A stretch of 64,000 nt of DNA, from positions 1 to 64,000 of the forward strand of contig NZ_SELO01000020.1 in NCBI RefSeq assembly GCF_004146235.1, read 5' to 3'. Below the pieces are notes generated by a model, which was not told the DNA's origin, did no database searches, and saw nothing but the letters and a program-made list of their open reading frames with translations. The position numbers and the translations under genes are program-made. This DNA is from Tropicimonas sp. IMCC6043 (GTDB lineage Bacteria > Pseudomonadota > Alphaproteobacteria > Rhodobacterales > Rhodobacteraceae). Shown in pieces: positions 272 to 14,857 of this stretch. Every line of letters begins with the position of its first letter. Within the stretch, counting starts at the first letter, position 1.

Positions 272-1402
272 ATGAAGGCTTGTGGCGTAGACAAAACGAC
301 CCAACGGGAAACTCTCAGCTTTGAGACTGATCTCGGCGCTTCACGATCTATCTGGATTGCTGGTGCGCTCGTGGTGGTCATCGTTGCCTGGATGGGAAGC
401 GGTCTGGTTTTTCCATCAGACACGACTGAACCGGTGGCACGCCGGGGTGAACCGCAACCGGTATCAGTTGCTGTACGCCGATCTACCGCCGAGACGGTCA
501 CGGAGCTTTTTCAGGCCGAAGGACAGGCCCTGCCAGACCGGGATTCAGCACTTCGCGCCGAGACATCGGGGACAATCGACGAGGTCTATGTGGTAAAGGG
601 TCAGATGGTCGAACAAGGGGCCGTCGTGGCCAGGTTTGATCGAACTGAATCCAATGCGGCCCTGACGCGAGCCCGTGAGGATTTGGTGCAGGCACGGCGT
701 GAGCTCGAAAATGCTCAGACGCTGTTCGAACGTGGCGTCGCAACAACGGATCGCCTGGTGCTCGCCCGGGTCGCACTCGCTGCGGCGGAATCGCGGCTGA
801 CCAACGCCCGAGAGGCAGTCGTCGATGCTGGGATCAAGGCGCCGTTCACGGGGCGGATTGAAGCGCTCGATCTTGATCCGGGCGAGTTTGTTTCTGCCGG
901 GACCGAGGTCGGGCGGATCGTCGACAACAGCCCCTTGACTGTGACCATCCAGGTCCCTCAGCAATCGCTGACCCGCCTTCACGAGGGGCAAACGGCAACC
1001 GTGCGCTTCATCACCGGCGAGGTCCGCGAAGGCAAGGTGATTTTCGTCGGGACGGCTGCCTCGGCTGAAACGCGAACTTTCCTGGCCGAGGTGCGCGTTC
1101 AGAATCTGGACGGCGCGATCCCTGCCGGGATATCGGCCGAAGTGGAGATTCCGTCCGGTGAGACGGTCGCCCACTTCCTCTCGCCCTCGATCATATCGCT
1201 CAACGCGGACGGAGAACTGGGCGTCAAGACTGTCGGCGCCGACAATGTCGTTCGGTTTCACCATATCGCCCTCGCTCGTTCCCAACTTGATGGTATCTGG
1301 GTGACCGGGCTGCCGGATACGGCCGATATCATCACGGTTGGCCAGGGTTTCGTGCGCGACGGGGAAACCGTTCGTCCAAGCGCCGAGGAGCCTGGACAAT
1401 GA
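272..1402 (+). CDS. RND efflux periplasmic adaptor subunit (membrane fusion protein)
   Basis: 376-residue adaptor linking an inner-membrane RND pump to an outer-membrane channel. A cytoplasmic N-terminus of about 26 residues precedes one membrane anchor (about 27-48) instead of a cleaved signal peptide. It is followed by the first half of a lipoyl/barrel-sandwich domain (about 95-125), a short alpha-hairpin coiled coil (about 128-187), the second lipoyl half (KAPFTGRIEALDLDPGEFV, from residue 189) and a beta-barrel region. The ATG at 272 is preceded by AAGGAG at good spacing. It overlaps the pump gene by 4 nt (ATGA), so the pair is translationally coupled. No outer-membrane factor or regulator lies in the window. 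The substrate cannot be read from the sequence. Confidence 0.88.
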   Translation: MKACGVDKTTQRETLSFETDLGASRSIWIAGALVVVIVAWMGSGLVFPSDTTEPVARRGEPQPVSVAVRRSTAETVTELFQAEGQALPDRDSALRAETSGTIDEVYVVKGQMVEQGAVVARFDRTESNAALTRAREDLVQARRELENAQTLFERGVATTDRLVLARVALAAAESRLTNAREAVVDAGIKAPFTGRIEALDLDPGEFVSAGTEVGRIVDNSPLTVTIQVPQQSLTRLHEGQTATVRFITGEVREGKVIFVGTAASAETRTFLAEVRVQNLDGAIPAGISAEVEIPSGETVAHFLSPSIISLNADGELGVKTVGADNVVRFHHIALARSQLDGIWVTGLPDTADIITVGQGFVRDGETVRPSAEEPGQ

Positions 1403-4400
1403 ACGCGATCATCTCCGCTGCCTTCGCTCGGACACGCGCGGTCATCATGTCGTTGGTCTTGGTGCTGATTGTTGGGGCCTATGCCTATGTCTCGATCCCG
1501 AAAGAGGCTGATCCCGAGGTGCCTCTTCCCTTCTTCTACGTTTCGACAGGTCTCGACGGCATCAGTCCCGGCGACGCCGAACGCCTTCTGCTCGAACCGC
1601 TGGAAAAGGAACTGGCCTCAATCAGTGATCTGGACAGTCTGGAATCCTACGCCTCCGAGGGGTCCGCTACTGTCCTTCTGGAATTCAGCGCCGGAGCAGA
1701 CAACGCCGAAGCCCTCGACAATGTTCGCGTCGCGGCTGACCGCGCCGAAAGCGAACTTCCCGATGACGCCTATGACATTACCATCACCGAAATCAACACG
1801 GCCCTTTTCCCAGTCATCACGGCCATCCTGTCCGGCCCGGTGCCCGAGCGCACGCTCAACCGACTGGCCGAGGATATGCAGGACGAGATCGAAGCGCTCG
1901 AAGGCGTTCTGGAAGTCGATATCGGCGGCAAGCGTTCCGAATTCCTCGAAGTGCTCGTCGACCCCACCGTTTTTCAGACTTACAACCTCAGTTTCGACGA
2001 ACTGATCGGACAGATCCAGCGCAACAACCGCCTGATTGCAGCCGGCGCTATCGAGACTGGTGTCGGCCGCATCATCCTCAAAGTGCCCGGACTGATCGAG
2101 GACTTGGACGACATCATGTCCATGCCGATCAAAGTGAGGGGGAATGCCGTAGTCACCTTCGGCGACGTTGCGATGGTCCGTAGGGCATTCGAAGATCCCA
2201 GCTCATTTGCCCGCATCAATGGACAACCGGCTCTGGCACTCGAAGTGAAGAAACGCGCAGGTGCCAACATCATCGAGACAGTGTCAGCCGTTCGAGCACT
2301 GGTCGCCGAGATTCGCGCCGACTGGCCGGAAACCGTGAAAATAACTTACCTGCAGGATCAGAGCGAAACAGTGGAAGACCTCTTAAGCGACCTCGAGGCC
2401 AACGTCATCGCCGCCGTGATGCTGGTTATGATCGTCATCGTGTTCGCGCTCGGGTTGCGCTCTGCGATCCTCGTGGGAATCGCCATACCAGGAGCCTTTC
2501 TGGCTGGCGTTATCGCGCTCTGGGCGATGGGGTACACGATGAACATAGTGGTCCTGTTCTCGTTGATTCTAGTGGTTGGCATGCTCGTTGACGGCGCAAT
2601 CGTGACCACGGAATTCGCTGACAGGCGCCTTCAGGAAGGTGCAACGCCGCGAGAAGCGTACGCCCGTGCTGCAAAACGAATGGCGTGGCCGATCATTGCT
2701 TCGACGGCGACAACTCTCAGCGTCTTTTTCCCGCTTCTGTTCTGGTCCGGCATAATCGGTGAGTTCATGAAGTTCCTGCCGATCACCGTGATCCTGACCC
2801 TTTTCGCATCGATGTTCATGGCGTTGGTTTTCATTCCAGTGTTGGGTGGGGTCATTGGTAAGCGCCAACCCCAGACCGCCCGCGAAAAACTGGCACTGCA
2901 TGAGGCCGAGTTCGGCGATCCGCGTCGGATGCAAGGGGCCACCGGCGCTTATGTCAGGCTCCTCGAATGGGCAATCCTGCGCCCCGGAACGACGGTAGTG
3001 CTGGCGATTGCGCTGCTTTTGGGTAGCTTCGGCCTCTATGGAGAGTTCGGCAAGGGCTTGACGTTCTTTCCCTCGGTCGAGCCGGAGTTCATGCAGGTGC
3101 AGGTCCGTGCGCGAGACAACTCCTCAATCTTCGAACGCGATGCCTTGGTGCGGGCGGTGGAAGACCGTCTGCTTGGCTTCGACGAAGTTGCCAGCATCTA
3201 TGCACGCTCAACGATGAGTGCCGGTCAAGGAGACGAGGAAACCATCGGCACGCTCCAGCTTGAACTGATTGACTGGAGCAAGCGCCGGACCGCGGAGGAA
3301 ATCGGTGCCGACATCCGCACGAAGGTGGCGGACATTGCCGGCATCGATGTGCAGGTCCAGACAGACAGCGGCGGTCCAAACTCGGGCAAGCCAATCAACC
3401 TGAAGGTCACATCCCGTTCGCCGCAGGATCAGTTTTACGCGGTTGAAATCATCCGACAGATCATGGGCCAGATGGGAACCTTCACCGACATCACGGACAC
3501 CCGCCCTTTGCCCGGTGTCGAGGTCTCCATCCTGGTCAACCGCGCGGAGGCTGCACGCTTCGGCGCCGATGTCAGCCTGCTGGGCCAGGCGGTGCAGTTG
3601 CTGACCCAAGGTATTACCGTCGCCGATTATAGACCCGATGACACCGACGATGCGCTTGACATCCGGGTCCGATTTCCACGGCAGGAACGCACGCTTGCCG
3701 AACTGGGAAATCTACGTGTGCCGACCTCCGCCGGGCTGGTTCCAATCTCGAACTTCGTAAAGTTTGTACCAACCCCGCGCACCGGTATCATCAGACGATT
3801 GGACCAGAAGCGCGTAACGACCGTCGAGGCCAACGTACTCCCCGGCCTTCTGGTCAATGACCAGGTCAACGCACTCCGCGCCACTCTTGAGGCGACCGAC
3901 CTGCCGGATGACGTCAGTTACGGCTTCGGCGGCGAGGCCGAAGATCAGGAAGAAAGCATGAAATTCCTCATCGGGGCGTTCATAGCTGCGATATTCCTGA
4001 TGTTCGGCATACTCATGCTGCAATTCAACAGCTTCTATCAGGCGTTTGTGGTGATGAGCGCGATCGTCTTTTCAATTGCCGGAGTGCTGTTGGGGCTCTT
4101 GGTGACCGGGCGACCGTTTGGCGTGGTCATGGGAGGCATCGGAGTGATCGCGCTTGCCGGGATCGTGGTGAACAACAACATCGTCCTGATCGATACCTTC
4201 AACGACCTCAAACGCGGTGGACAGAGCCCGCTGGAGGCTGCACTTCGAACTGGCGCCCAAAGGTTGCGTCCGGTGGTCCTGACGTCGCTGACGACGTCCC
4301 TCGGTCTCATGCCAATGGTGATCGGGGTCAACCTGAACTTCTATACTCGCGAGGTCATCTATGGCGCCCCATCGACCCAGTGGTGGACAGAACTGTCCGC

Positions 4401-4518
4401 GGCCATCGCTGGCGGCCTCCTTGTCGCCACCGTTCTGACCCTGATCGTGACGCCGGCGATGCTGATGCTTGGAGAAAAGCGGGCGCTTCGCGGCGTTCCG
4501 GCGCCACAAGAAGTCTGA
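1399..4518 (+). CDS. RND efflux transporter permease subunit
   Basis: 1039-residue inner-membrane, proton-driven RND pump (AcrB/MdtB superfamily; normal length about 1020-1050). The topology is standard: TM1 near the N-terminus, a large periplasmic porter domain, TM2-6, a second periplasmic domain and TM8-12. The proton-relay region of TM4 reads GMLVDGAIV: Asp398 is kept, but the following position, Asp in AcrB (D408), is Gly399. In TM10 the AcrB Lys940 region reads GIVVNNNIVLID, with Asn in place of Lys. These changes define a subgroup unlike classic HAE1 pumps, and the substrate is unknown. The gene starts in a 4-nt overlap with the adaptor. Codon use seems less GC-biased than in the rest of the window, so a different history is possible. 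Confidence 0.9.
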   Translation: MNAIISAAFARTRAVIMSLVLVLIVGAYAYVSIPKEADPEVPLPFFYVSTGLDGISPGDAERLLLEPLEKELASISDLDSLESYASEGSATVLLEFSAGADNAEALDNVRVAADRAESELPDDAYDITITEINTALFPVITAILSGPVPERTLNRLAEDMQDEIEALEGVLEVDIGGKRSEFLEVLVDPTVFQTYNLSFDELIGQIQRNNRLIAAGAIETGVGRIILKVPGLIEDLDDIMSMPIKVRGNAVVTFGDVAMVRRAFEDPSSFARINGQPALALEVKKRAGANIIETVSAVRALVAEIRADWPETVKITYLQDQSETVEDLLSDLEANVIAAVMLVMIVIVFALGLRSAILVGIAIPGAFLAGVIALWAMGYTMNIVVLFSLILVVGMLVDGAIVTTEFADRRLQEGATPREAYARAAKRMAWPIIASTATTLSVFFPLLFWSGIIGEFMKFLPITVILTLFASMFMALVFIPVLGGVIGKRQPQTAREKLALHEAEFGDPRRMQGATGAYVRLLEWAILRPGTTVVLAIALLLGSFGLYGEFGKGLTFFPSVEPEFMQVQVRARDNSSIFERDALVRAVEDRLLGFDEVASIYARSTMSAGQGDEETIGTLQLELIDWSKRRTAEEIGADIRTKVADIAGIDVQVQTDSGGPNSGKPINLKVTSRSPQDQFYAVEIIRQIMGQMGTFTDITDTRPLPGVEVSILVNRAEAARFGADVSLLGQAVQLLTQGITVADYRPDDTDDALDIRVRFPRQERTLAELGNLRVPTSAGLVPISNFVKFVPTPRTGIIRRLDQKRVTTVEANVLPGLLVNDQVNALRATLEATDLPDDVSYGFGGEAEDQEESMKFLIGAFIAAIFLMFGILMLQFNSFYQAFVVMSAIVFSIAGVLLGLLVTGRPFGVVMGGIGVIALAGIVVNNNIVLIDTFNDLKRGGQSPLEAALRTGAQRLRPVVLTSLTTSLGLMPMVIGVNLNFYTREVIYGAPSTQWWTELSAAIAGGLLVATVLTLIVTPAMLMLGEKRALRGVPAPQEV

Positions 4519-5145: not shown

Positions 5146-5235
5146 TGGCGGAGACGATGGGATTCGAACCCACGAGACCCTTCCGGGCCTACTCCCTTAG
5201 CAGGGGAGCGCCTTCGACCACTCGGCCACGTCTCC
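5146..5235 (-). tRNA. tRNA-Ser(GCT)
   Basis: On the minus strand the 5' acceptor arm GGAGACG (5235-5229) pairs with CGTCTCC (5156-5150). The D arm, an anticodon loop CTGCTAA with anticodon GCT (reads AGC/AGU), a long class II variable arm and the T-arm sequence GGTTCGAATCC are all present. The discriminator is G, followed by a genome-encoded CCA (5148-5146). The total is 90 nt. The long variable arm and the GCT anticodon identify serine. Confidence 0.95.
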
Positions 5236-5597: not shown

Positions 5598-5628
5598 TTG
5601 ACAGGCGGAGAGGCAGGCAATCAATAAT
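5598..5628 (+). promoter_or_regulatory. Probable promoter of the TTT catabolic operon
   Basis: A perfect -35 hexamer TTGACA (5598-5603) is followed after 19 nt by AATAAT (5623-5628), five of six matches to the sigma-70 -10 consensus. The spacing is longer than the ideal 17. It lies 38 nt upstream of the tctC start, with the palindrome at 5629-5646 immediately downstream, which places that palindrome over the likely transcription start. Confidence 0.5.
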
Positions 5629-5646
5629 TAACTGAAAGGTTAGTTA
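5629..5646. promoter_or_regulatory. Palindromic candidate operator for the operon's TetR regulator
   Basis: TAACT (5629-5633) and AGTTA (5642-5646) are perfect inverted half-sites separated by 8 nt. The AT-rich patch stands out in a GC-rich window. TetR-family dimers bind palindromes of this size, and a TetR gene lies in the operon at 13156-13794. The site sits between the -10 box and the tctC ribosome-binding site, where bound repressor would block transcription. The link to this TetR is an inference from position. Confidence 0.45.
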
Positions 5647-5665: not shown

Positions 5666-6670
5666 ATGCATAGGGCACTTGCGATCGGAGCGGTCCTGGC
5701 CGGAAGTCTTTCCGGCGCGGCGATGGCACAGGACTGGCAGCCGTCCGAGCCCGTCACGATTGTGGTTCCATGGTCGGCCGGCGGGTCAACTGACAGCGTG
5801 ACGCGTGTCGTCGCCGAGGTTCTCAGCGAAGCGATCGGCCAGACTTTCGTCGTGGTGAACCAGCCCGGCGCGTCCGGGTCCGTCGGAACGCGGTCCGTGT
5901 GGGAAGCGCCGCATGACGGCATGATGTTCGCGGCCGGAGCGGCGGCGGACCTTGGGGCCTACCCGGTCATGGACATGCTCGATGTCCCGCTGGCCGATTG
6001 GCAACTTTACCTCCACGTCGCCAACCCTTCGCTGGTCTCGGTTCCCGCCGATTCTCAATATCAAGACTTCGGCGAGCTTCTCGAAGCTCTGAAGGCCGCA
6101 GGCGATCCGATCACAGCCTCCTCCGCTGGTTTGACCTCGGCGGGCGCCATCAGCCTCGATGCCATCGACAAGGCAGCCGGCGGAATCAACTACCAGCAGA
6201 TCACCTATGAAGGCGGCGCGCCCGCGGTGACATCGACAGTGGCGGGTGAGACGCAGATGACTGCGCAAACGGCGGTGGAGCAGGTGGACATGATCCGGGC
6301 AGGCCGGCTGCGCCCGCTCGCCGTCGTGGCGGACACCGCGCTTGAACTCCAGGATTTTGGCAGCGTGCCGCCGATCACGGACTGGTTGCCCGATGTCGCA
6401 GTGGCGCCAAACTATTTCGGCCTGTTCCTTCCGGCTGATGCACCTGAGGAGGTGATCGCCACGATGAACGACATCTGGGAGACCGTCATTCCGAACAGTG
6501 ATCGGATGCGGAGCTATGCCTCGGAGCGCGCTGCGCTGTTCAAGCCGTCCTATGGTAAGGACGCCCAGGCAGCAGCGATGCCGTTCCTCCAGATCAATGC
6601 GTATCAGCAGTTCGACAGCGGTGCCGGACCGAACGATCCGGCAGATTTCGGCATCCCCCGCGCGAACTGA
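5666..6670 (+). CDS. TTT transporter periplasmic substrate-binding protein (TctC/Bug family)
   Basis: 334-residue periplasmic binding protein of the Bug/TctC family, which delivers small carboxylates to a TctA/TctB membrane pair. A Sec signal peptide ends near AMA-QDW (cleavage about 21/22). The family ligand-loop signatures are present in modified form: PWSAGGSTDSVTR (usual PGGGTD) and NQPGASGSVG. The start at 5666 was chosen because the signal peptide begins there, with AGAGGAGG at 5651-5658 as ribosome-binding site. It is the first gene of the operon, 20 nt after the candidate operator. A hairpin follows the stop codon and may keep this transcript abundant relative to the membrane genes. 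The ligand cannot be predicted; sugar acids, citrate-like acids and other organic anions are all known for the family. Confidence 0.85.
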   Translation: MHRALAIGAVLAGSLSGAAMAQDWQPSEPVTIVVPWSAGGSTDSVTRVVAEVLSEAIGQTFVVVNQPGASGSVGTRSVWEAPHDGMMFAAGAAADLGAYPVMDMLDVPLADWQLYLHVANPSLVSVPADSQYQDFGELLEALKAAGDPITASSAGLTSAGAISLDAIDKAAGGINYQQITYEGGAPAVTSTVAGETQMTAQTAVEQVDMIRAGRLRPLAVVADTALELQDFGSVPPITDWLPDVAVAPNYFGLFLPADAPEEVIATMNDIWETVIPNSDRMRSYASERAALFKPSYGKDAQAAAMPFLQINAYQQFDSGAGPNDPADFGIPRAN

Positions 6671-6679
6671 TCGCCACAA

Positions 6680-6706
6680 CCGGCCCGGATCGGTGATCCG
6701 GGCCGG
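6680..6706 (+). other. Strong intra-operon stem-loop between tctC and tctA
   Basis: CCGGCCCGGATC (6680-6691) and GATCCGGGCCGG (6695-6706) form a perfect 12-bp stem with a 3-nt loop. No T-run follows. In binding-protein transporter operons such hairpins commonly protect the 3' end of the binding-protein mRNA or partly attenuate downstream genes. That role here is inferred from position. Confidence 0.6.
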
Positions 6707-6783
6707 CTCCTGCGTCGGCATGCGCCCCGTTTCCGTCGGTACGGCGCGTGTGAGCTTACTGACCCGCATTTCCGCCTGGGCAC

Positions 6784-8295
6784 ATGGATAACCTCACGCA
6801 CATGCTCGCCGCGGTCGCCGACATCGGCGCATCGCCTCAGCTCTTCACGGTCTTCTGGGCCTGCCTTCTGGGCATTGTGATCGGGATGATCCCCGGCCTG
6901 ACCGCTACGCTGGGCGTCGCGCTGATGACGACGCTGACACTATCGATGAAGCCCGATCAGGCTATCCTGATCCTGATCTGCATGTATGTCGGCGCCATCT
7001 ATGGCGGCAGCCGATCGGCGATCCTTCTTAACATCCCCGGAACGCCGGCAAACGCGGCCACGTCCCTCGAGGGCTTCCCGCTCGCCCGAAGCGGGCATGC
7101 CGGTCGCGCGATGGCCATCGCGACGACGGGCTCCTTTCTGGGCACGACGGTGGGAATGCTGGCGCTTGCCGTTCTCGCCCCTTGGCTCGCGGAATTCGCT
7201 CTCGACTTCGGTTCCTTCGAGTTCTTCTGGCTGGCGGTCTTCGGCATCGTGCTCTGCGGGCAGCTCACTGCGATGGAAGACGGGCTGAAAGGATGGATCT
7301 CTGGCTTCATTGGACTGCTCGTCGCGATGGTGGGGCAGGAAAGCATCCATGGCTATTCCCGGTTCGCCTATGGCAATCCCAATCTCGCCGGCGGATTGGG
7401 GCTACTCCCGATTCTGGTCGGAGCATTCGGCTGTGCCGAAGTCTTTTCGGTGATGCGCGGCGAGGCTGGGCAGCGTGTCACCAACAATGCGCGAGGCGTG
7501 CTGTCCTCGAGCCTGCAGGCCTTCCGGCACAGCGCGACGTGGTTGCGTTCTGGATTGATCGGCACGTTCATGGGCGTTGTGCCCGGCGTGGGAGAAGATA
7601 TGGGGGCGTGGGTTTCCTACGCCGCTGCACGGCGCCTCACCCGGAAGCCCGAGGAGTACGGCAAGGGTTCGGTCGAGGGGCTTCTGGCCGCCGAAACCGG
7701 GAACTCCGCCGCCGTTCCCGGCGCGCTGATCCCGGTCCTGACGCTTGCGATTCCGGGCTCCGCGCCTGCTGCGGTTCTGCTTGCGGCCATGATCATCCAC
7801 GGCATCCGGCCCGGCCCGCTGATTATGTATCAGCAGCCTGACTTTTTCTATTCCATCGTGGCGATGGTGTTCTGGGCCAGCGTCGGCATCCTCGTCCTCG
7901 GCCTCCTGTTGACGCGCCCCCTTCTCCTCATCCTGAAGGTTCGCCGCGAGTGGCTGCTCGGCGTGATCTTCACGCTCTGTGTCGTCGGTGCCTTCGCCAT
8001 CTCGAACCGGATGTTCGAGGTGCATCTGATGATCGTTTTCGGACTGATCGGCTTTCTGATGCGCGAAACCGGCTTTCCGGTGGCGCCGATGGTCCTCGGT
8101 GTCGTCCTGGGCCCCATCCTCGACGCCAACCTGCGCCGCAGTCTCGCGCTCACGCAGGGCGACCTGTCGCCGTTCTTCACGCGACCGATCTCGGCATTGC
8201 TGGCCTTCCTGGTAATCGTGATCCTGCTCGCTGGCCTTCTGCCGACCCGACGGATCTTCAACTGGGTCAGGAATCGAATGGGAGCGCTAACGTGA
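6784..8295 (+). CDS. TTT transporter large membrane subunit (TctA family)
   Basis: 503-residue integral membrane protein with about eleven to twelve hydrophobic segments, the normal size for TctA. Family signatures are clear: GMIPGLTATLGVALM near residue 38, and GGSRSAILLNIPGTPANAA near residue 78 followed by GFPLARSG. A second similar repeat in the C-terminal half (VVPGVGEDMGAW, then PGSAPAAVLL) fits the internal duplication of the family. It forms the channel that takes substrate from the binding protein. The ATG at 6784 has only a weak ribosome-binding site, and 113 nt with a strong hairpin separate it from tctC. Its stop overlaps the GTG of the following oxidoreductase, so tctB is not next to it, an unusual order. 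Confidence 0.9.
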   Translation: MDNLTHMLAAVADIGASPQLFTVFWACLLGIVIGMIPGLTATLGVALMTTLTLSMKPDQAILILICMYVGAIYGGSRSAILLNIPGTPANAATSLEGFPLARSGHAGRAMAIATTGSFLGTTVGMLALAVLAPWLAEFALDFGSFEFFWLAVFGIVLCGQLTAMEDGLKGWISGFIGLLVAMVGQESIHGYSRFAYGNPNLAGGLGLLPILVGAFGCAEVFSVMRGEAGQRVTNNARGVLSSSLQAFRHSATWLRSGLIGTFMGVVPGVGEDMGAWVSYAAARRLTRKPEEYGKGSVEGLLAAETGNSAAVPGALIPVLTLAIPGSAPAAVLLAAMIIHGIRPGPLIMYQQPDFFYSIVAMVFWASVGILVLGLLLTRPLLLILKVRREWLLGVIFTLCVVGAFAISNRMFEVHLMIVFGLIGFLMRETGFPVAPMVLGVVLGPILDANLRRSLALTQGDLSPFFTRPISALLAFLVIVILLAGLLPTRRIFNWVRNRMGALT

Positions 8296-9335
8296 CGCGC
8301 CGGGTCCTCATCGTCGGCTACGGAGCCTTTGGGGTGCTTCATGCCCGGGCGTGGTCAAGGCTGCCCGGTATCGCACTTCGCGTCGCAGAAGAGGATGCCG
8401 CTGCGCGCGAACGTGCGGTCGGCGATGGCCTGTCCCAGGACGACGTGTTCGGCGATCTCGAACTGGCGATGAGAGATGCGGATGTCGTGGACATCGTCGC
8501 GCCGCCCGACGCCCATGCAATGGTCGCCGAGATGGCGCTGTCGCGCGGGCTGCCGGTCCTGATCGAAAAGCCGGCCACCCGGACGCTGGAAGAGGCACGG
8601 CGGCTGGCGGCTCTCGCACGCGGCGTTCCGGTTCAGGTCGGAATGATCCTGCGTTCCCATCCCCTGACGGACCGCGCGCGCGTGCTCATCGATCAGGGCG
8701 CTATCGGACGGCTCGTCTCGATGAACGGAGATTTCTCGGGGTGGAAACGGATGCGGGAGGACAGCTCGCTGATCGAGAATGATGGCGTTCATTTCCTCGA
8801 CCTCATGCGGCATCTCGCGAAGGCCCGGATCGTCGCGGTCGACGCTGTCGCCAATACCCGGCTCGGTGGCGACGTGGTCGACGACATCCGCATCGATATG
8901 CTGCACGAGAACGGAGTTGCCGGCGAACTTCGGCTCGGTCTCCTCCGGGGCGGAACGGTTGCCGACAGCGTCGTTCCGGGCGCGCGAACGCGAAAGGATC
9001 TTATGCTGTGCGGCGACAAGGGAGTCCTGCATCTTGACTTCAATGCGAGCCGGTTGACGAGGGCGCGCGTCCGATACACGGCGAGCCCGGGCGGATGGCA
9101 TCCCGATCCCGGCGAATGTGTAACCGAGGATATCGATGGCGCGACCACGGTCGACCTGTTGAAGAGCGCCTTTGCGGGTTTTCTAGAAACCATCGATCAG
9201 GGCGCGCCGCCGTGCTGCGGTCTCGAAGAGGGCGCGATCGAGCTTGCGCAGGTGAGCGAGGCGATCGGGGCCGCACTTGGACGTGGTCCGCGTTCCTACG
9301 TGGCCATTGAAGCTGAAATGGAGGCGGCGCGATGA
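8292..9335 (+). CDS. Gfo/Idh/MocA family NAD(P)-dependent oxidoreductase
   Basis: 347-residue dehydrogenase. An N-terminal Rossmann fold carries GYGAFG (residues 9-14); the family motif EKP is at 92-94, and the catalytic-region histidine lies in NDGVHFLDLM (His166, Asp169). Enzymes of this family oxidise or reduce hydroxyl/keto groups on sugars, inositols and sugar acids. The GTG at 8292 was chosen because it overlaps the tctA stop (GTGA) and begins exactly at the Rossmann beta-strand; the frame is open further upstream, but only inside tctA. The stop overlaps tctB by 4 nt. Position between the two transporter membrane genes suggests it acts on the imported substrate. No substrate is assignable. 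Confidence 0.85.
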   Translation: MTRRVLIVGYGAFGVLHARAWSRLPGIALRVAEEDAAARERAVGDGLSQDDVFGDLELAMRDADVVDIVAPPDAHAMVAEMALSRGLPVLIEKPATRTLEEARRLAALARGVPVQVGMILRSHPLTDRARVLIDQGAIGRLVSMNGDFSGWKRMREDSSLIENDGVHFLDLMRHLAKARIVAVDAVANTRLGGDVVDDIRIDMLHENGVAGELRLGLLRGGTVADSVVPGARTRKDLMLCGDKGVLHLDFNASRLTRARVRYTASPGGWHPDPGECVTEDIDGATTVDLLKSAFAGFLETIDQGAPPCCGLEEGAIELAQVSEAIGAALGRGPRSYVAIEAEMEAAR

Positions 9336-9841
9336 GCGAACGCAATTCGGCGATCCGCGTCGATCTTCTGTCCGGGCTTTTTACGGTGCTTCTCGGCACG
9401 GCCGGATTGGTGGAATCGCTCCGCATGCCGCGCTTCGCGGAACGTGGAGTCGACCCGAACACGGTTCCGGGCGTCACGCCGGGGTTGATTTCCGCGGCGC
9501 TTCTGGTTTTCGGGCTGTTGCTCACACTGCGTGCGATCCGCGGCGCCAAGGGGGGATTGGGAGTCACGATCCACCGCTGGAACAGGGCCTCGATCTTGCG
9601 GACAGTTCTGACCATCGCGCTGGCACTGACCTACGGAATGCTCCTGTTTGGATCGTTTCCCTTCATACCCGTCACGGCCGGCTTCGTCTTCGTGTTCGTC
9701 GTTGCCCTTGAGCTTGTGAACCCCGACCGCAAGCTGTCACTGCCTGTGCTCATCGTCGGCGCTGCCCTTCTCGCCCTGGTGGCGGCGGCCGGAATTCATA
9801 TTGTTTTTAAGGAGATATTCCTCGTGAGGTTGCCCGGATGA
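9332..9841 (+). CDS. TTT transporter small membrane subunit (TctB family)
   Basis: 169-residue membrane protein with about four hydrophobic helices, matching the small, poorly conserved TctB subunit. The N-terminal half shows the typical layout of a first helix (LLSGLFTVLLGTAGLVESL), a Phe/Pro-containing loop (RMPRF.. then PGVTPGL) and a second helix (ISAALLVFGLLLTL). Two further helices follow a basic loop. It starts in a 4-nt overlap with the oxidoreductase and its stop overlaps the next gene by 4 nt. Assignment rests on size, topology and operon context more than on strong motifs, but all three agree. Confidence 0.8.
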   Translation: MSERNSAIRVDLLSGLFTVLLGTAGLVESLRMPRFAERGVDPNTVPGVTPGLISAALLVFGLLLTLRAIRGAKGGLGVTIHRWNRASILRTVLTIALALTYGMLLFGSFPFIPVTAGFVFVFVVALELVNPDRKLSLPVLIVGAALLALVAAAGIHIVFKEIFLVRLPG

Positions 9842-10674
9842 TACGGCTCGCTCTCTGCAACGAGGTGCTCAGGGAAATCAGCTTTGCCGAGCAATGCAGT
9901 ATCATTGCCGATCTCGGCTTCGACGCGGTCGAGATCGCGCCCTTCACGCTTTCGGAAGACCCTGCCGCTTTGACGGCGGCGAAACGGCGCGAAATACGGG
10001 AGATCGCCGGCGATGCCGGGCTCGAGATCGCCGGCCTTCACTGGCTGATGAATTTTCCCGAAGGACTGTCGATTACCGATCCGCTGCGCGCCGGCGAGGC
10101 GGGGGCACATATGGAAGCCATGGTCGAACTCTGCGCCGATCTGGGCGGCGAGATGATGGTCCACGGCTCGCCCGACGCCCGCAACCCGGCAGACGCGCCC
10201 GACGCGGCCGCGGCCCGGGCCGCCGCCGCGGACTGCTTCGCGCGGGCAGGTCGCGCCGCCGAAGCGGCAGGCGTTCGGTATTGTCTTGAACCGCTCTCTC
10301 CCAGCCTGACGCCGTTTCTGAACTCGGTCGCCGATTGCGTGGAGTTCATCGACGAGATCGGCGCGCCTGGCCTTCTGACCATGCTGGATACCTGTGCGGC
10401 GGCAGACAGTGAGGACCGGCCAGCCCACGAGGTGCTTGAGAAATGGTTGCCGACGGGACGGATCGGCCATGTCCATGTCAATGACCCCAACAGAAGGGCG
10501 CCGGGGCAGGGCGAGATGCGCTTTGGCCCGGTCTTCGATGTCCTGACGCGGGCAGGCTTCGCCGGCTATGTCAGCGCGGAGCCCTTCGTCTACGAACCGT
10601 CGGGTCTCGCCTGCGCCTCCGTGGCCGCCGGCTATCTCCGGGCACTTCGTGAGTCGGTGGGAGAGCCGTCATGA
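9838..10674 (+). CDS. Sugar phosphate isomerase/epimerase-like TIM-barrel protein
   Basis: 278-residue protein of the xylose isomerase-like TIM-barrel superfamily (relatives include hydroxypyruvate isomerase, IolE and tagatose/psicose epimerases). Likely metal ligands are in place: Glu151 (CLEPLS), Asp184 (TMLDT), His211 (GHVHVND) and Glu248 (SAEPF). The HVND and AEPF stretches are typical of this group. It would interconvert keto and hydroxy positions of the imported compound or a derivative. It is coupled by ATGA overlaps to tctB upstream and to the enolase-superfamily gene downstream. The exact reaction is unknown. Confidence 0.8.
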   Translation: MIRLALCNEVLREISFAEQCSIIADLGFDAVEIAPFTLSEDPAALTAAKRREIREIAGDAGLEIAGLHWLMNFPEGLSITDPLRAGEAGAHMEAMVELCADLGGEMMVHGSPDARNPADAPDAAAARAAAADCFARAGRAAEAAGVRYCLEPLSPSLTPFLNSVADCVEFIDEIGAPGLLTMLDTCAAADSEDRPAHEVLEKWLPTGRIGHVHVNDPNRRAPGQGEMRFGPVFDVLTRAGFAGYVSAEPFVYEPSGLACASVAAGYLRALRESVGEPS

Positions 10675-12125
10675 CGGCCGCACGGATCCGCATTGGGCCC
10701 GCACGGATCGGCCTCGACGAAGTCTTTGCGCGGATGCCGTTCCGTTTCGGGGCCGTGACCATCGAGGCAGCCGTGGCCGCGACGCTCGCGCTCGAGCTTC
10801 ACGTCGACGGACGGGCCGTGACTGGCTACGCTTCCGAGATCCTCGCCTACAAATGGTTCGACAAGCGACCTGAAAAGTCGGCCGAGGAAAACGTGGCCGA
10901 TCTCCTCTCAATCCTCCAGGATGCCGTGGCACGCGCCGAGGCCTATGCCGATGACGACATCTTCACGCTCTGGCGGCGCCTCGATACCGACATGCGGGCA
11001 GCGGCGGCGGGACAGGGCCACAACGCCCTGATGGCCGGCTACGGCACGTCCATGGTCGAACGCGCCATGATAGACGGGGCAGGGCGGGCGCTTGGCCTCT
11101 CCTTCCGGGAGATGCTGAGCCGGGGAACGCTGGGCCTGAGACCCGGAGAAATCTTTCCCGAACTTGCCGGGACGGACCTTTGTGCGGCGCTCCCGCCCAC
11201 ACCTCTCGACCGTGTTGCGGTCCGGCACACGGTGGGGATGCTAGATCCGATCGACGATGCCGATCTCGCGCCGGATCGACGGCTGAACGACGGGCTTCCC
11301 GAGACGCTCGCCGAGTATCTGGACGGCGGAATCCGCTATCTGAAGGTCAAGATCGCGGGCAACACAGACGCCGATCTCGAGCGTCTCCTGCGCATAGCCG
11401 GACTGCTCGGCCGGACTGTTGGCGAGGTCCGGCTGACGCTTGACGGTAATGAACAGTTTGCCACCGTCGATGCGTTCGCGGCTTTCATGGAGACGGTCCG
11501 GTCCGAACCCCGTCTCGACGGGCTGCGGCGCTCCATCCTGTTCGCCGAGCAACCCATCGAACGCAAGACCGCGCTGTCGGGTCCGCTCGATCCACGTGCG
11601 CTCGAGGCCATCGGCCTGCCGCTTCTCATCGACGAGAGCGACGATGCGCCCGATGCGTTCCGCCGCGCCATCGACCTTGGCTATCGCGGTGTGAGCCACA
11701 AGAACTGCAAGGGGGTGCTGCGGTCCGTCATGAACGGATTGCTTGCTCGGCATCATGCGGACAAGGGGAATGTGGCTCTCTTCCAATCCGCCGAGGATCT
11801 GAGCTGTCTTCCGGTCGCCGGTCTCAATTCCGACCTTGCGGTGGTTGCAGCGCTCGGCATCGGCCATGTCGAGCGAAACGCTCATCACTTCTTCAACGGA
11901 ATGGCCCACTTGCCCCCTGCCGATGTCGTCGCGGGGCTTGCGGATCATCCTGAACTTTATCACCCCGACGACCGCGTTGGCGGTCGTCTCACCATCAACA
12001 ACGGAACGCTGTCGGTCGCCAGCCTGCAACGTCCCGGGATGGGATTCCCGCCTCCGGATATGGAAGCGCGCATCCGGCCTTCCGACTGGTCGTTCGATCG
12101 GCTGGCCCGCAATCCCCAAGAATAA
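10671..12125 (+). CDS. Enolase-superfamily enzyme (mandelate racemase/muconate lactonizing-like)
   Basis: 484 residues, longer than the usual 360-450 of the superfamily. The C-terminal barrel carries KVK (225-227) as the second-strand KxK acid/base motif, and metal-ligand candidates Asp258 (LTLDGNEQF), Glu293 (FAEQP) and Asp321/Glu322 (LIDES). The opposite barrel wall carries Lys344 in SHKNCKG instead of the His-Asp pair of mandelate racemases. Enzymes of the superfamily abstract a proton alpha to a carboxylate and then dehydrate, racemise or cycloisomerise. In an acid-sugar operon with a DapA-like aldolase, dehydratase activity is the first guess, but the length, the Lys at strand six and the extended C-terminus (after about 410) make this an atypical member. 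It is coupled upstream by a 4-nt overlap. Confidence 0.75.
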   Translation: MTAARIRIGPARIGLDEVFARMPFRFGAVTIEAAVAATLALELHVDGRAVTGYASEILAYKWFDKRPEKSAEENVADLLSILQDAVARAEAYADDDIFTLWRRLDTDMRAAAAGQGHNALMAGYGTSMVERAMIDGAGRALGLSFREMLSRGTLGLRPGEIFPELAGTDLCAALPPTPLDRVAVRHTVGMLDPIDDADLAPDRRLNDGLPETLAEYLDGGIRYLKVKIAGNTDADLERLLRIAGLLGRTVGEVRLTLDGNEQFATVDAFAAFMETVRSEPRLDGLRRSILFAEQPIERKTALSGPLDPRALEAIGLPLLIDESDDAPDAFRRAIDLGYRGVSHKNCKGVLRSVMNGLLARHHADKGNVALFQSAEDLSCLPVAGLNSDLAVVAALGIGHVERNAHHFFNGMAHLPPADVVAGLADHPELYHPDDRVGGRLTINNGTLSVASLQRPGMGFPPPDMEARIRPSDWSFDRLARNPQE

Positions 12126-12137
12126 AAGGAGCTGTCG

Positions 12138-13166
12138 ATGTCCACACGCCCCGAAAAAGGTTTCTCCGATCTGGACGCACTGGAAGAGGCTCTCTCCCGC
12201 CCTTCGCCCGAACTGTGCGAGTATCTGCCGACCCTGCCCGGCGATATCACGCTGCTCGGCGTCGGCGGTAAGATCGGGCCAACACTCGCGAGGATGGCCA
12301 AGCGCGCTGCGCCGGATAAGCGGATCATCGGTGTGGCCCGGTTTTCGGAGGCCGGACTGCGCGAGAAGCTTGATGGCTGGGGCATAGAGACCGTGGCCTG
12401 CGACCTGCTTGACCGCGATGCGGTCTTCGGCCTGGAGAAAACGGAGAACGCCATTTTTCTCGCCGGGCGCAAGTTCGGAAGCGAAAGCAACATGGCGCTG
12501 ACCTGGGCGATGAACGTGATTTGTCCCGCCATTGTTGCCGAGGCTTTTGCCGGCTCTCGCCTTGCCGTTTATTCGACGGCCTGTGTCTATCCGTTCGTGG
12601 ACGTGACGTCGGGCGGCGCTCCCGAGAGCCTCCGGGTGGATCCGCCCGGCGAATACGCGAACTCCTGCATCGGCCGGGAACGGGCCTTCGAACATTTCGC
12701 TCAGATCCATGGCACAAAGTCGGTGATCCTGCGCCTCTCCTACGCGCTCGACATGCGCTATGGCGTGCTGCACGACGTCGCTCAGGCCGTCCTTGCCGGC
12801 AGGCCCGTTCCGCTCGACATGGGGCATTGCAACGTCATCTGGCAGGGGGATGCAAATGACGTGGCGCTGCGGTCGCTGGCGCTGGCGGACAACCCGCCGA
12901 CACTTCTGAACCTGTCGGGTCCCGAAACCGCCTCGATCCGCCGCATCGCCGAGCGCTTCGGGGAGATCTTCGGCAAGGAACCGGTCTTCACCGGAACCGA
13001 GCAGGACCGCGCCTGGCTCGTGGACACCACGCTGCAGCAACGTCATTTCGGCTATCCGGACGTCCCCCTCGCAACGGTGATCGACTGGACCGCCGAATGG
13101 GTTGCGGCGGGGCGCGGGTCGCTCGGCAAGCCGACGCATTTCGAGGTGCGCGACGGTGCGTATTGA
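12138..13166 (+). CDS. NAD-dependent epimerase/dehydratase-like protein lacking the catalytic lysine
   Basis: 342-residue extended-SDR fold. The nucleotide-binding loop is GVGGKIG (41-47). The active-site Ser is visible in VYSTACVYPF (Ser146) and the catalytic Tyr in GEYANSCIGRE (Tyr173), but the position four residues later, Lys in the YxxxK motif, is Cys177. The Glu at +8 (Glu181) is conserved, so the alignment is secure. Family members dehydrogenate, epimerise or reduce nucleotide sugars, uronates and similar compounds; this one may work by another mechanism or only bind. The start has AAAGGAG six nt upstream. It follows the enolase-type gene by 12 nt and overlaps the TetR gene. Confidence 0.75.
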   Translation: MSTRPEKGFSDLDALEEALSRPSPELCEYLPTLPGDITLLGVGGKIGPTLARMAKRAAPDKRIIGVARFSEAGLREKLDGWGIETVACDLLDRDAVFGLEKTENAIFLAGRKFGSESNMALTWAMNVICPAIVAEAFAGSRLAVYSTACVYPFVDVTSGGAPESLRVDPPGEYANSCIGRERAFEHFAQIHGTKSVILRLSYALDMRYGVLHDVAQAVLAGRPVPLDMGHCNVIWQGDANDVALRSLALADNPPTLLNLSGPETASIRRIAERFGEIFGKEPVFTGTEQDRAWLVDTTLQQRHFGYPDVPLATVIDWTAEWVAAGRGSLGKPTHFEVRDGAY

Positions 13167-13794
13167 GAGGATCAAGCGACGCCCGGGCACGCGCGACGCC
13201 GAAGCCACGCGGGCGGCCATTCTCGACGCGGCGCGTGCCGAGTTCGCCGAGAACGGCCTGGGTGGCGGGCGCATCGACGCCATCGCCGACCGCGCGGGAA
13301 TAAACAAGGCCATGATCTACCACTACTTCGGATCCAAGGACGCCCTGTTCGCGGAGGTTCTTCAGCAGAACTATGCGCTGATCCGGGCTGCCGAGGCGAA
13401 GCTGGAGCTTGCACGGCTGGAACCGGCCGAGGCGGTTGGGACTTTCGTGGAATTCTCCTTCGACTATGTCGCGGCGAACCCGGAATTCATAAAGCTCCTA
13501 AACGAGGAAAACCTGCATGGAGGCCGGCACCTCAACCCGGACCTTGCGCGGCAACTGAACAGTCCAGTCGTTGCCGCACTGTCCGACGTGCTGGCTCGCG
13601 GCGTCGAGTCGGGTCTGTTCCGCAAGGATGTCGACCCGCAACACCTGTATATTACCATAGCTTCAATCTGTTACTTCCCGGTCTCCAACCGCTGCACGCT
13701 CTCGGCGATCTTCGACCTGCCGCTGGGTGGCGAGATGCTGAACGAGCGGCGGCGGCAGGCGACCGAGGTGATCTTCGGATACCTGAGACCCTGA
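13156..13794 (+). CDS. TetR-family transcriptional regulator
   Basis: 212 residues from a GTG at 13156. The N-terminal helix-turn-helix is clear: RAAILDAARAEFAENG, then DAIADRAGINKAMIYHYFGSKD, the usual TetR recognition region ending in YHYFxSK. The C-terminal part is a typical all-helical ligand domain of the TetR_C type, with a short insert rich in aromatic residues. The GTG overlaps the epimerase-like stop by 11 nt and has GAGG ahead of it; an earlier ATG in frame lies deep inside the upstream gene and was not chosen. Being inside the operon it probably controls, it likely autoregulates through the palindrome at 5629-5646 and senses the pathway substrate. Confidence 0.85.
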   Translation: MRIERIKRRPGTRDAEATRAAILDAARAEFAENGLGGGRIDAIADRAGINKAMIYHYFGSKDALFAEVLQQNYALIRAAEAKLELARLEPAEAVGTFVEFSFDYVAANPEFIKLLNEENLHGGRHLNPDLARQLNSPVVAALSDVLARGVESGLFRKDVDPQHLYITIASICYFPVSNRCTLSAIFDLPLGGEMLNERRRQATEVIFGYLRP

Positions 13795-13807
13795 ACGAGG
13801 ACCTGAC

Positions 13808-14857
13808 GTGCTGATCTCCGACATCCCACAGGACACACTTGCCCGACTGCGGCGCGGCGGAGCCATTCCTGCCCATCCGCTGGCGCTGACACCGGACAGA
13901 AAGCTCGACGAGCATCGTCAGCGTGTCCTGTCCCGCTACTATCTGGACGCCGGGTCCATCGGTCTCGCCGTCGGCGTCCACACGACACAGTTCGAGATCC
14001 GAGAAGCAGGCCTCTACGACCGCGTGCTGGAACTTGCGGCCGAGGAGGCCGAGGCGCATGGCTCGCAACCCTTCCTCGTTGGCGGGGTTGCCGGTGCCAC
14101 GGCACAGGCGACGTCCGAGGCCAAAGTGGCAAGGGCGCTCGGCTACCATGCCGTGCTCCTGAGTCTTGCGGGACTCGACGGCCTCGACGAGGATGCTCTC
14201 GTGGCCCATTGCGCGGCGGTCGCGGAGATCATGCCCGTCTTCGGCTTCTACCTGCAACCGGCGGTCGGTGGCCGGCACCTGTCTCGTGCCTTCTGGGAGC
14301 GCTTCGCTGGCATCGAGAACGTGGTTGCGATCAAGGCGGCCCCGTTCAACCGCTATTTCACGCTCGACGTCGTGCACGCTGTCGTGGCGGCCCGGGCAGA
14401 GGACCGCATCTCGCTCTATACCGGAAACGACGACCACATCGTCGCCGATCTGCTGACCGAGTTCCGAGTCGCGCGCGACGGGGAGATCGTGTCGGTTCGG
14501 TTCCGCGGCGGTCTGCTCGGCCATTGGGCGGTCTGGACGCGCCGGGCTGTCGAACTCATGGAGGAAATTCGCGACCGACCCGATAGCCGGAGCCTCACCG
14601 ACTGGCTGGCGATGGATGCCCTGACCACCTACGCCAACTCGGTGCTCTTCGATGTCGACAACAATTTCGCAGGCTGCATCGCCGCGCTTCACGAAGTGCT
14701 GCGCCGCCAGGGACTTCTGGAAGGAACCTGGTGCCTGAACCCGGAGGAAACCATGGGGCCGGGACAGGAAGCGCGCCTCGGTCGGCTGCTGTCGCAGCAT
14801 CCGGAGCTCACCGACGACCAGTTCGTGAAGGACAACATCGAACGGTGGCTCCGCTGA
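13808..14857 (+). CDS. Dihydrodipicolinate synthase-like (DapA/NAL superfamily) aldolase
   Basis: 349-residue class I, Schiff-base TIM-barrel protein. Lys176 in VVAIKAAPFN is the expected Schiff-base lysine and Tyr148 in GFYLQP matches the DapA catalytic Tyr region. It is longer than DapA (about 290) and lacks close DapA features, so a role in lysine synthesis is unlikely. Relatives in catabolic operons are 2-keto-3-deoxy-sugar-acid aldolases and 5-dehydro-4-deoxyglucarate dehydratase. As the last gene of the TTT operon, 13 nt after tetR, it is a natural candidate for the carbon-carbon-cleaving or decarboxylating step. The actual substrate is unknown. Confidence 0.75.
   Translation: MLISDIPQDTLARLRRGGAIPAHPLALTPDRKLDEHRQRVLSRYYLDAGSIGLAVGVHTTQFEIREAGLYDRVLELAAEEAEAHGSQPFLVGGVAGATAQATSEAKVARALGYHAVLLSLAGLDGLDEDALVAHCAAVAEIMPVFGFYLQPAVGGRHLSRAFWERFAGIENVVAIKAAPFNRYFTLDVVHAVVAARAEDRISLYTGNDDHIVADLLTEFRVARDGEIVSVRFRGGLLGHWAVWTRRAVELMEEIRDRPDSRSLTDWLAMDALTTYANSVLFDVDNNFAGCIAALHEVLRRQGLLEGTWCLNPEETMGPGQEARLGRLLSQHPELTDDQFVKDNIERWLR

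Follow-up and report, generated by a model that had tools for sequence, protein, structure and literature searches.

Which substrate is taken up and broken down by the nine genes at 5666–14857 of the DNA analysed here, and how are they controlled? This stretch, referred to below as the window, is the first 64,000 nucleotides of contig NZ_SELO01000020.1 of Tropicimonas sp. IMCC6043, and the nine genes combine a tripartite tricarboxylate transporter (TTT) with enzymes and a TetR-type regulator. We lean, with modest confidence, towards a self-regulated catabolic operon, controlled by its own TetR protein, for the inducible import and breakdown of a hydroxylated carboxylic acid.

Organization of the operon

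A preliminary description of this locus had placed nine same-direction genes here and proposed that they form a compact TTT catabolic operon. An open reading frame check of the window found all nine, on the + strand:

5666–6670, + strand: TctC solute-binding protein (PF03401, 78.6 bits, cut-off 27)
6784–8295, + strand: TctA large membrane subunit (PF01970, 444 bits)
8292–9335, + strand: Gfo/Idh/MocA dehydrogenase (Gfo), GTG start (PF01408, 58.4 bits; PF22725, 38.2 bits)
9332–9841, + strand: TctB small membrane subunit (PF07331, 35 bits, cut-off 29.1)
9838–10674, + strand: AP_endonuc_2 TIM barrel (P0005, AP2), epimerase-like (PF01261, 124.9 bits)
10671–12125, + strand: divergent enolase-superfamily enzyme (P0006, ENO; AlphaFold, Foldseek, invariant residues)
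12138–13166, + strand: protein like an extended short-chain dehydrogenase/reductase (P0007, SDR), with no Lys in YxxxK (AlphaFold, Foldseek, alignment)
13156–13794, + strand: TetR-type regulator, GTG start (PF17938, 127.6 bits; PF00440, 63 bits)
13808–14857, + strand: Schiff-base lyase of the DapA/N-acetylneuraminate lyase type (DapA type), K176, GTG start (PF00701, 35.1 bits, cut-off 22.1)

Seven of the nine proteins are named by Pfam; for the exceptions, ENO and SDR, Pfam gave no hit even at E 10 and NCBIfam none at E 0.001. The three TTT domains (PF01970, PF07331 and PF03401) are encoded together, each above its cut-off, and the interleaved enzyme genes and tight junctions are as expected for the compact operon proposed. 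Exact 4-nucleotide (nt) overlaps occur at TctA/Gfo, Gfo/TctB, TctB/AP2 and AP2/ENO, that is, at four of the eight junctions, and the earlier statement that most junctions overlap in this way was therefore too strong. The SDR and TetR genes overlap by 11 nt, while gaps of 113, 12 and 13 nt separate TctC/TctA, ENO/SDR and TetR/DapA respectively. As judged from the 4-nt overlaps, the TTT and enzyme genes would be expressed as one transcription unit, which supports a joint catabolic role.

The longest gap contains one further feature:

6680–6706, + strand: 12-bp hairpin without a T-run, between tctC and tctA (fold of 6671–6783)

The fold has a z of -1.82, and nine of 200 shuffles fold equally well. 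The hairpin may stabilize the tctC message or lower downstream expression. Terminator-like sites were not enriched between 5100 and 15200 (six, against 7.0 in shuffles).

Conservation of the operon

The same gene set and order, which had been put forward for comparison across genomes, recur elsewhere. A contig search with ENO as query yielded 24 related loci, 10 of which carry all nine genes in identical order. Eight others keep every gene except Gfo, including L016, where the TetR match is in two pieces. L009 has the operon without SDR, L012 has no TctC, TctA or Gfo, L023 is without Gfo, SDR, TetR and DapA, and three loci (L013, L020 and L026) are truncated by contig ends. The hosts include Alterinioella, Roseicyclus, Oceaniglobus, Nitratireductor, Aquamicrobium, Mesorhizobium, Chelativorans, Devosia and Sneathiella, and all nine genes are also found on a Nitratireductor plasmid and in genome G050 (locus L090). 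In L006, one of the 10 complete loci, the SDR match is split into separate pieces, which decay or a sequencing error may explain.

Ratios of non-synonymous to synonymous substitution (dN/dS) against the two nearest loci ranged from 0.053 to 0.247, lowest for TctC and TctA and highest for Gfo; by this measure all nine genes are under purifying selection. Distance matrices of eight genes, Gfo not included, correlate at 0.77–0.98 with relatedness left in. This Mantel comparison used the window and 15 of the 24 loci; L006, L016 and L018 were excluded manually, and six further loci, each lacking one of six genes, were omitted.

These data bear on whether the genes have any joint function. ENO was found in two of 60 genomes, the Tropicimonas genome itself and one outside the family, and in none of the eight same-genus genomes searched, from which we conclude that the operon is accessory. 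This and the interrupted SDR of L006 are what a chance or decaying cluster would predict. We nevertheless consider such a cluster very improbable: order is kept in distant hosts, selection is purifying and the upstream site described below is conserved. A purely chance assembly is ruled out by the order conserved in many loci and by dN/dS.

A probable operator for the TetR regulator

Upstream of tctC we recognize two elements:

5629–5646, no strand assigned: probable TetR operator TAACTGAAAGGTTAGTTA (pattern unique in the genome, palindromes in relatives, matrix test)
5598–5603, + strand: TTGACA box, probable -35 element of the operon promoter, with no clear -10 (position kept in relatives)

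The pattern TAAYTRNNNNGTTRGTTA has a single match in the 5.46-Mb Tropicimonas genome, at 5629–5646, and its reversed control has none. Read by eye, a palindrome precedes tctC in all 21 related loci that have upstream DNA (13 of the TAAC/GTTA type, seven of the TAAGTA/TACTTA type, and one looser, more distant copy in L023). TTGACA lies at a like position in 18 of the 21, and TTGACT in two; in the window 25 nt separate TTGACA from the palindrome.

An operator matrix was built from 12 sites (the window and 11 loci) and run on 33 other loci. Scores of at least 16 were found in 15 of the 19 loci with a related TetR and in none of the 14 without (Fisher p 6e-6), and in a subset of 20 fetched DapA loci, introduced below, in 11 of 13 against none of seven (p 5e-4), both p-values being inflated by related loci and by a cut-off of 16 chosen once initial scores were known (20 shuffles, highest 15.3). 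The test set includes two pairs of near relatives (L060/L091 and L029/L101) and a TTT locus of the same kind as the training set (L090), and its TetR-free loci include other phyla. Each locus was also compared with 50 Markov shuffles of itself: 13 of the 15 sites scored above all of them, and those of L060 and L091 were each reached by a single shuffle. For some loci the shuffled scores went up to 20.4, with a probable artefact of 89.2 in L083. Four loci with TetR (L061, L078, L089 and L100) have no operator above the cut-off. For 12 of the 15 sites, a pathway or regulator gene has its aligned start 24–112 nt away, and matches extend to loci with importers other than TTT.

In L072, L073, L075, L080, L084 and L088 an operator-like palindrome lies 24–112 nt before genes for PhyH-type dioxygenases, and in some of these a MetE-like gene is nearby, which may point to a step of hydroxylation or demethylation in these relatives. 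The TetR protein itself is not RutR, since its score is far below the NCBIfam cut-off.

The divergent enolase-superfamily enzyme

The preliminary description had called ENO an unusual member of the enolase superfamily, and structure prediction agrees. The AlphaFold model (mean pLDDT, a per-residue confidence score, 88.1) finds enolase-superfamily structures in Foldseek (best E 5e-16; template modelling score, TM, 0.56 on query). 3,6-Anhydro-L-galactonate cycloisomerase ranks top and mandelate racemase next, with dipeptide and N-acylamino-acid epimerases close behind, at 12–17% identity and TM about 0.5–0.6 on query. A sequence profile matched dipeptide epimerase best among solved structures, weakly (E 0.0026). 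Although no Pfam family recognizes the protein encoded here, a Sinorhizobium relative passes PF13378 (30.3 against 29.4 bits).

Using DSSP on the model, we assigned the barrel strand ends as K225/K227 (strand 2), D258 (3), E293 (4), D321 (5) and K344 (6), the three carboxylates being the metal ligands. Strand 7 (371–374) is followed by E375-D376, with no His there. The strand-end residues, including all those named, are invariant in 22 of 22 sequences; the ENO alignment covers 21 of the 24 loci, and that of SDR 18. A Lys on each of strands 2 and 6 is the hallmark of the muconate-lactonizing type in this superfamily, whereas a strand-7 His marks the types that hold the known sugar-acid dehydratases; in the mandelate-racemase type this His is at the end of strand 7. 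On the model and alignment, ENO appears unlike classical sugar-acid dehydratases, with a pattern that may be of the muconate-lactonizing type. With the muconate-lactonizing/dipeptide-epimerase type it shares the fold, the three carboxylate ligands and, as far as DSSP places them, probably both Lys positions. Its chain is approximately 100 residues longer than that of most solved members, identity to them is near 15%, and Pfam does not recognize it. Muconate and N-succinylamino-acid enzymes form one subgroup with a conserved Lys acid catalyst (PMC4215206).

The other enzymes

The AlphaFold model of SDR (mean pLDDT 87.8) matches TerB and UDP-galactose 4-epimerases (GalE). Its Rossmann fold keeps the nucleotide motif GxxGxxG (GVGGKIG at 41–47). 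It had been described as lacking the catalytic Lys, and the Lys of YxxxK is indeed absent from all 33 aligned sequences, replaced by Cys in 31 and Val in two, across five phyla and including haloarchaea. The DapA type likewise fits the Schiff-base lyase suggested: K176 is invariant in 20 of 20 sequences, and the protein aligns with N-acetylneuraminate lyase. Among its relatives are KdgD-type and 2-keto-3-deoxygalactonate enzymes.

The solved chains nearest to the TIM barrel are D-tagatose/D-psicose 3-epimerases (best E 6.9e-16), with which it shares the AP_endonuc_2 barrel although it scores far below the NCBIfam equivalog cut-offs; Gfo is nearest to varied sugar and cyclitol dehydrogenases. 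No NCBIfam equivalog cut-off was reached by either protein. Specific identities were rejected on this basis for KdgD (5-dehydro-4-deoxyglucarate dehydratase; 19.7 against 374 bits), for D-psicose 3-epimerase and IolO (76.1 and 71.4 against 300 bits) and for IolG, far below its cut-off.

Proposed function

We propose that the acid would be bound by TctC in the periplasm and imported by TctAB. Inside the cell, Gfo would oxidize it at a hydroxyl and/or the TIM barrel would epimerize it. ENO, with its Lys pair and Mg2+, would remove the proton alpha to the carboxylate, leading to epimerization, beta-elimination or cycloisomerization, and the DapA type would form a K176 Schiff base with the resulting 2-keto acid before cleavage or dehydration. 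The SDR-like protein probably binds NAD(P) and, without the Lys, may catalyse an unusual reaction on that intermediate, whether redox or not. TetR would repress from 5629–5646 until it binds the substrate or an intermediate. The importer and repressor roles are assigned from family and position, and a carboxylate as cargo because TTT systems are known to carry carboxylates (PMC5812351). The order and chemistry of the enzyme steps are our conjecture from the protein families.

Several observations weigh against this proposal. Gfo is missing from eight loci that keep the other eight genes, and SDR from L009, so not all steps are fixed; the conserved core evidently does not require the oxidation by this Gfo with which the preliminary description had begun its chain. 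Five of the eight carry a different Gfo downstream. The 113-nt gap and hairpin could uncouple tctC from the other genes, a consensus promoter scan called no promoter before tctC, and the operator statistics are inflated as noted.

The nature of the substrate

The substrate had been described as probably acid-sugar-like, for which we found no direct evidence: ENO lacks the strand-7 His, and genes for a GNAT acetyltransferase and an NMT1-type ATP-binding cassette (ABC) importer often lie beside relatives of the SDR-DapA pair. A sugar acid is nevertheless possible, because most TTT substrates known so far carry a second carboxylate or some other polar group, and there is one TTT for galactarate/glucarate (PMC5812351). 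In its classical form, as first proposed, an aldonate, aldarate or uronate would undergo oxidation, isomerization, dehydration and aldol cleavage. The resemblance of Gfo and the TIM barrel to sugar and cyclitol enzymes, the KdgD-type and 2-keto-3-deoxygalactonate relatives of the DapA type, the galactarate/glucarate TTT and the top fold match of ENO all point this way. Against it, no curated equivalog is reached, and ENO lacks the His of that cycloisomerase type: the pocket of the SCO3480 cycloisomerase has Lys-164, Lys-166 and His-297 (PMC9706016). On balance, we regard a classical sugar acid as possible but less likely than not.

The Lys/Lys enzyme and the GNAT-bearing relatives keep a nitrogen-containing acid in play. 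Here the substrate would be an N-containing or N-acylated hydroxy acid (an amino-sugar acid, aminocyclitol carboxylate or N-acyl amino acid), ENO would be a Lys/Lys epimerase or eliminase like the N-acylamino-acid/dipeptide epimerases, and relatives that import the free amine would use GNAT to acylate it first; we take this reading as a serious rival, although a less likely one. It would fit the ENO residue pattern and the weak dipeptide-epimerase profile match, as well as the presence of GNAT in 15 of 20 alphaproteobacterial DapA loci, its position adjoining SDR in Tistrella, Sulfitobacter and Aquisphaera, and the acetyltransferase and aminotransferase genes near haloarchaeal relatives. However, GNAT occurs in only one of the 24 TTT-type loci, the Tropicimonas genome has no close GNAT copy (a 51-residue match only, E 2.6e-5), and sugar-acid, mandelate and acylamino enzymes are intermingled in the Foldseek ranking with similar scores. 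Mycosporine-like and rhizopine-like substrates were considered and dropped for want of evidence. A hydroxylated carboxylic acid, more broadly defined, remains our preferred substrate.

A wider family with exchanged partners

The DapA type (E < 1e-100) was found in 24 of 289 genomes of the class, Tropicimonas included, and SDR in 12 of 398 genomes of the phylum; among plasmid records they occur in 20 and 25 respectively. In the plasmid regions examined the two genes are adjacent or one gene apart in Tistrella, Sulfitobacter, Rhodococcus, Paenibacillus, Glaciihabitans, Mesobacillus, Aquisphaera, Streptomyces and Prescottella, while three haloarchaea have SDR without DapA. By homology, the SDR-DapA pair extends to Actinobacteria, Bacilli and Planctomycetes. 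In haloarchaeal L069, L071 and L103, SDR or ENO relatives lie amid sulfatase, heparinase II/III, aminotransferase and N-acetyltransferase genes in varied combinations, which suggests links to amino-sugar glycans in these archaea.

Twenty of the 23 strong DapA places in other genomes were fetched (G295, G068 and G220 were left out), several of them truncated by contig ends. They contain SDR, GNAT and an NMT1-type binding protein (15 each), TetR (13), a second Gfo (12), DUF993, ENO and PhyH (nine each), AP2 (seven), a MetE-like gene (six) and TctC (four).

ENO relatives are found together with Gfo, DUF993 and a TIM barrel in Paroceanicella, Sinorhizobium and Chelatococcus, and with KduI and GH39 genes in Rhizobium. 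The Sinorhizobium pSymB cluster (Gfo-DUF993-ENO-TIM barrel) and the Chelatococcus and Paroceanicella sets share with our operon the ENO relative, Gfo, TIM barrel and a related TetR, but have DUF993 where it has the SDR-DapA pair, and their importers vary (sugar ABC, NMT1-type ABC, and TTT in Paroceanicella). Operator scores exceed 16 in the Sinorhizobium and Chelatococcus loci; the operator test failed in Paroceanicella. Gfo, DUF993 (PF06187, to which no function is assigned) and a TIM barrel recur as a trio (L021:14225–17380; L101:6666–11249), with ENO or DapA relatives under a like TetR. DUF993 was not found in the Tropicimonas genome by a search that was positive in four of five other genomes, which rules it out as a required partner, and the word itself was not found in the open-licence PubMed Central (PMC) literature searched.

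Genomic setting

At 64.5%, the GC content of the operon differs little from the 65.9% found elsewhere in the window and does not speak for recent transfer. A tRNA-Ser(gct) at 5146–5235 on the - strand, approximately 430 bases before tctC, is a possible integration site. The left flank is common to two same-genus genomes and the right flank to two, and no fetched stretch has both; aragorn found no tRNA in these four flank stretches, and they did not show an empty site. To the left of the operon, genes at 272–4518 encode a HlyD-type adaptor and an AcrB-type pump, the latter 92–93% identical in two of eight same-genus genomes.

Relation to known systems and significance

TTT-coupled catabolic operons described in the available sections of PMC5812351 serve citrate (TctCBA), sulfolactate (SlcHFG) and, in Halomonas, galactarate/glucarate (TctABC). 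They likewise encode a three-part carboxylate importer with catabolic genes; none in those sections has this enzyme set, and here the importer genes are interleaved with Gfo. Citrate TTT systems are under two-component control (same sections), whereas this operon has its own TetR and palindrome. In open-licence PMC literature, among the matches listed, we found neither a description of the gene set, consistent with its not being a recognized pathway, nor the same set with a demonstrated substrate. All parts come from known families, in an arrangement of a known kind; what is new is how the enzymes are combined, together with the operator and two types of enzyme that no model scores.

Taken as a single, speculative claim, a regulon widespread among alphaproteobacteria but so far undescribed might be marked out by one type of TetR together with its palindrome (half-sites TAAC/GTTA or AAGTAACC/GGTTACTT), and the operon might be a small form of it that is supplied by a TTT. 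With ENO, SDR and DapA as its common core, such a regulon would feed one family of natural products, hydroxylated and possibly N-containing, into central metabolism, while importers (TTT, NMT1-type ABC, sugar-type ABC) and front-end enzymes (GNAT, PhyH, MetE-like, DUF993, second Gfo) would be exchanged. If this is true, SDR would perform new chemistry without its Lys. The analysis brings to light two enzyme families, the ENO and SDR types, without a scoring Pfam or NCBIfam model. The regulator–operator pair and TctC offer two direct experimental routes to the substrate, and the operon points to a carbon source shared by many marine and soil alphaproteobacteria.

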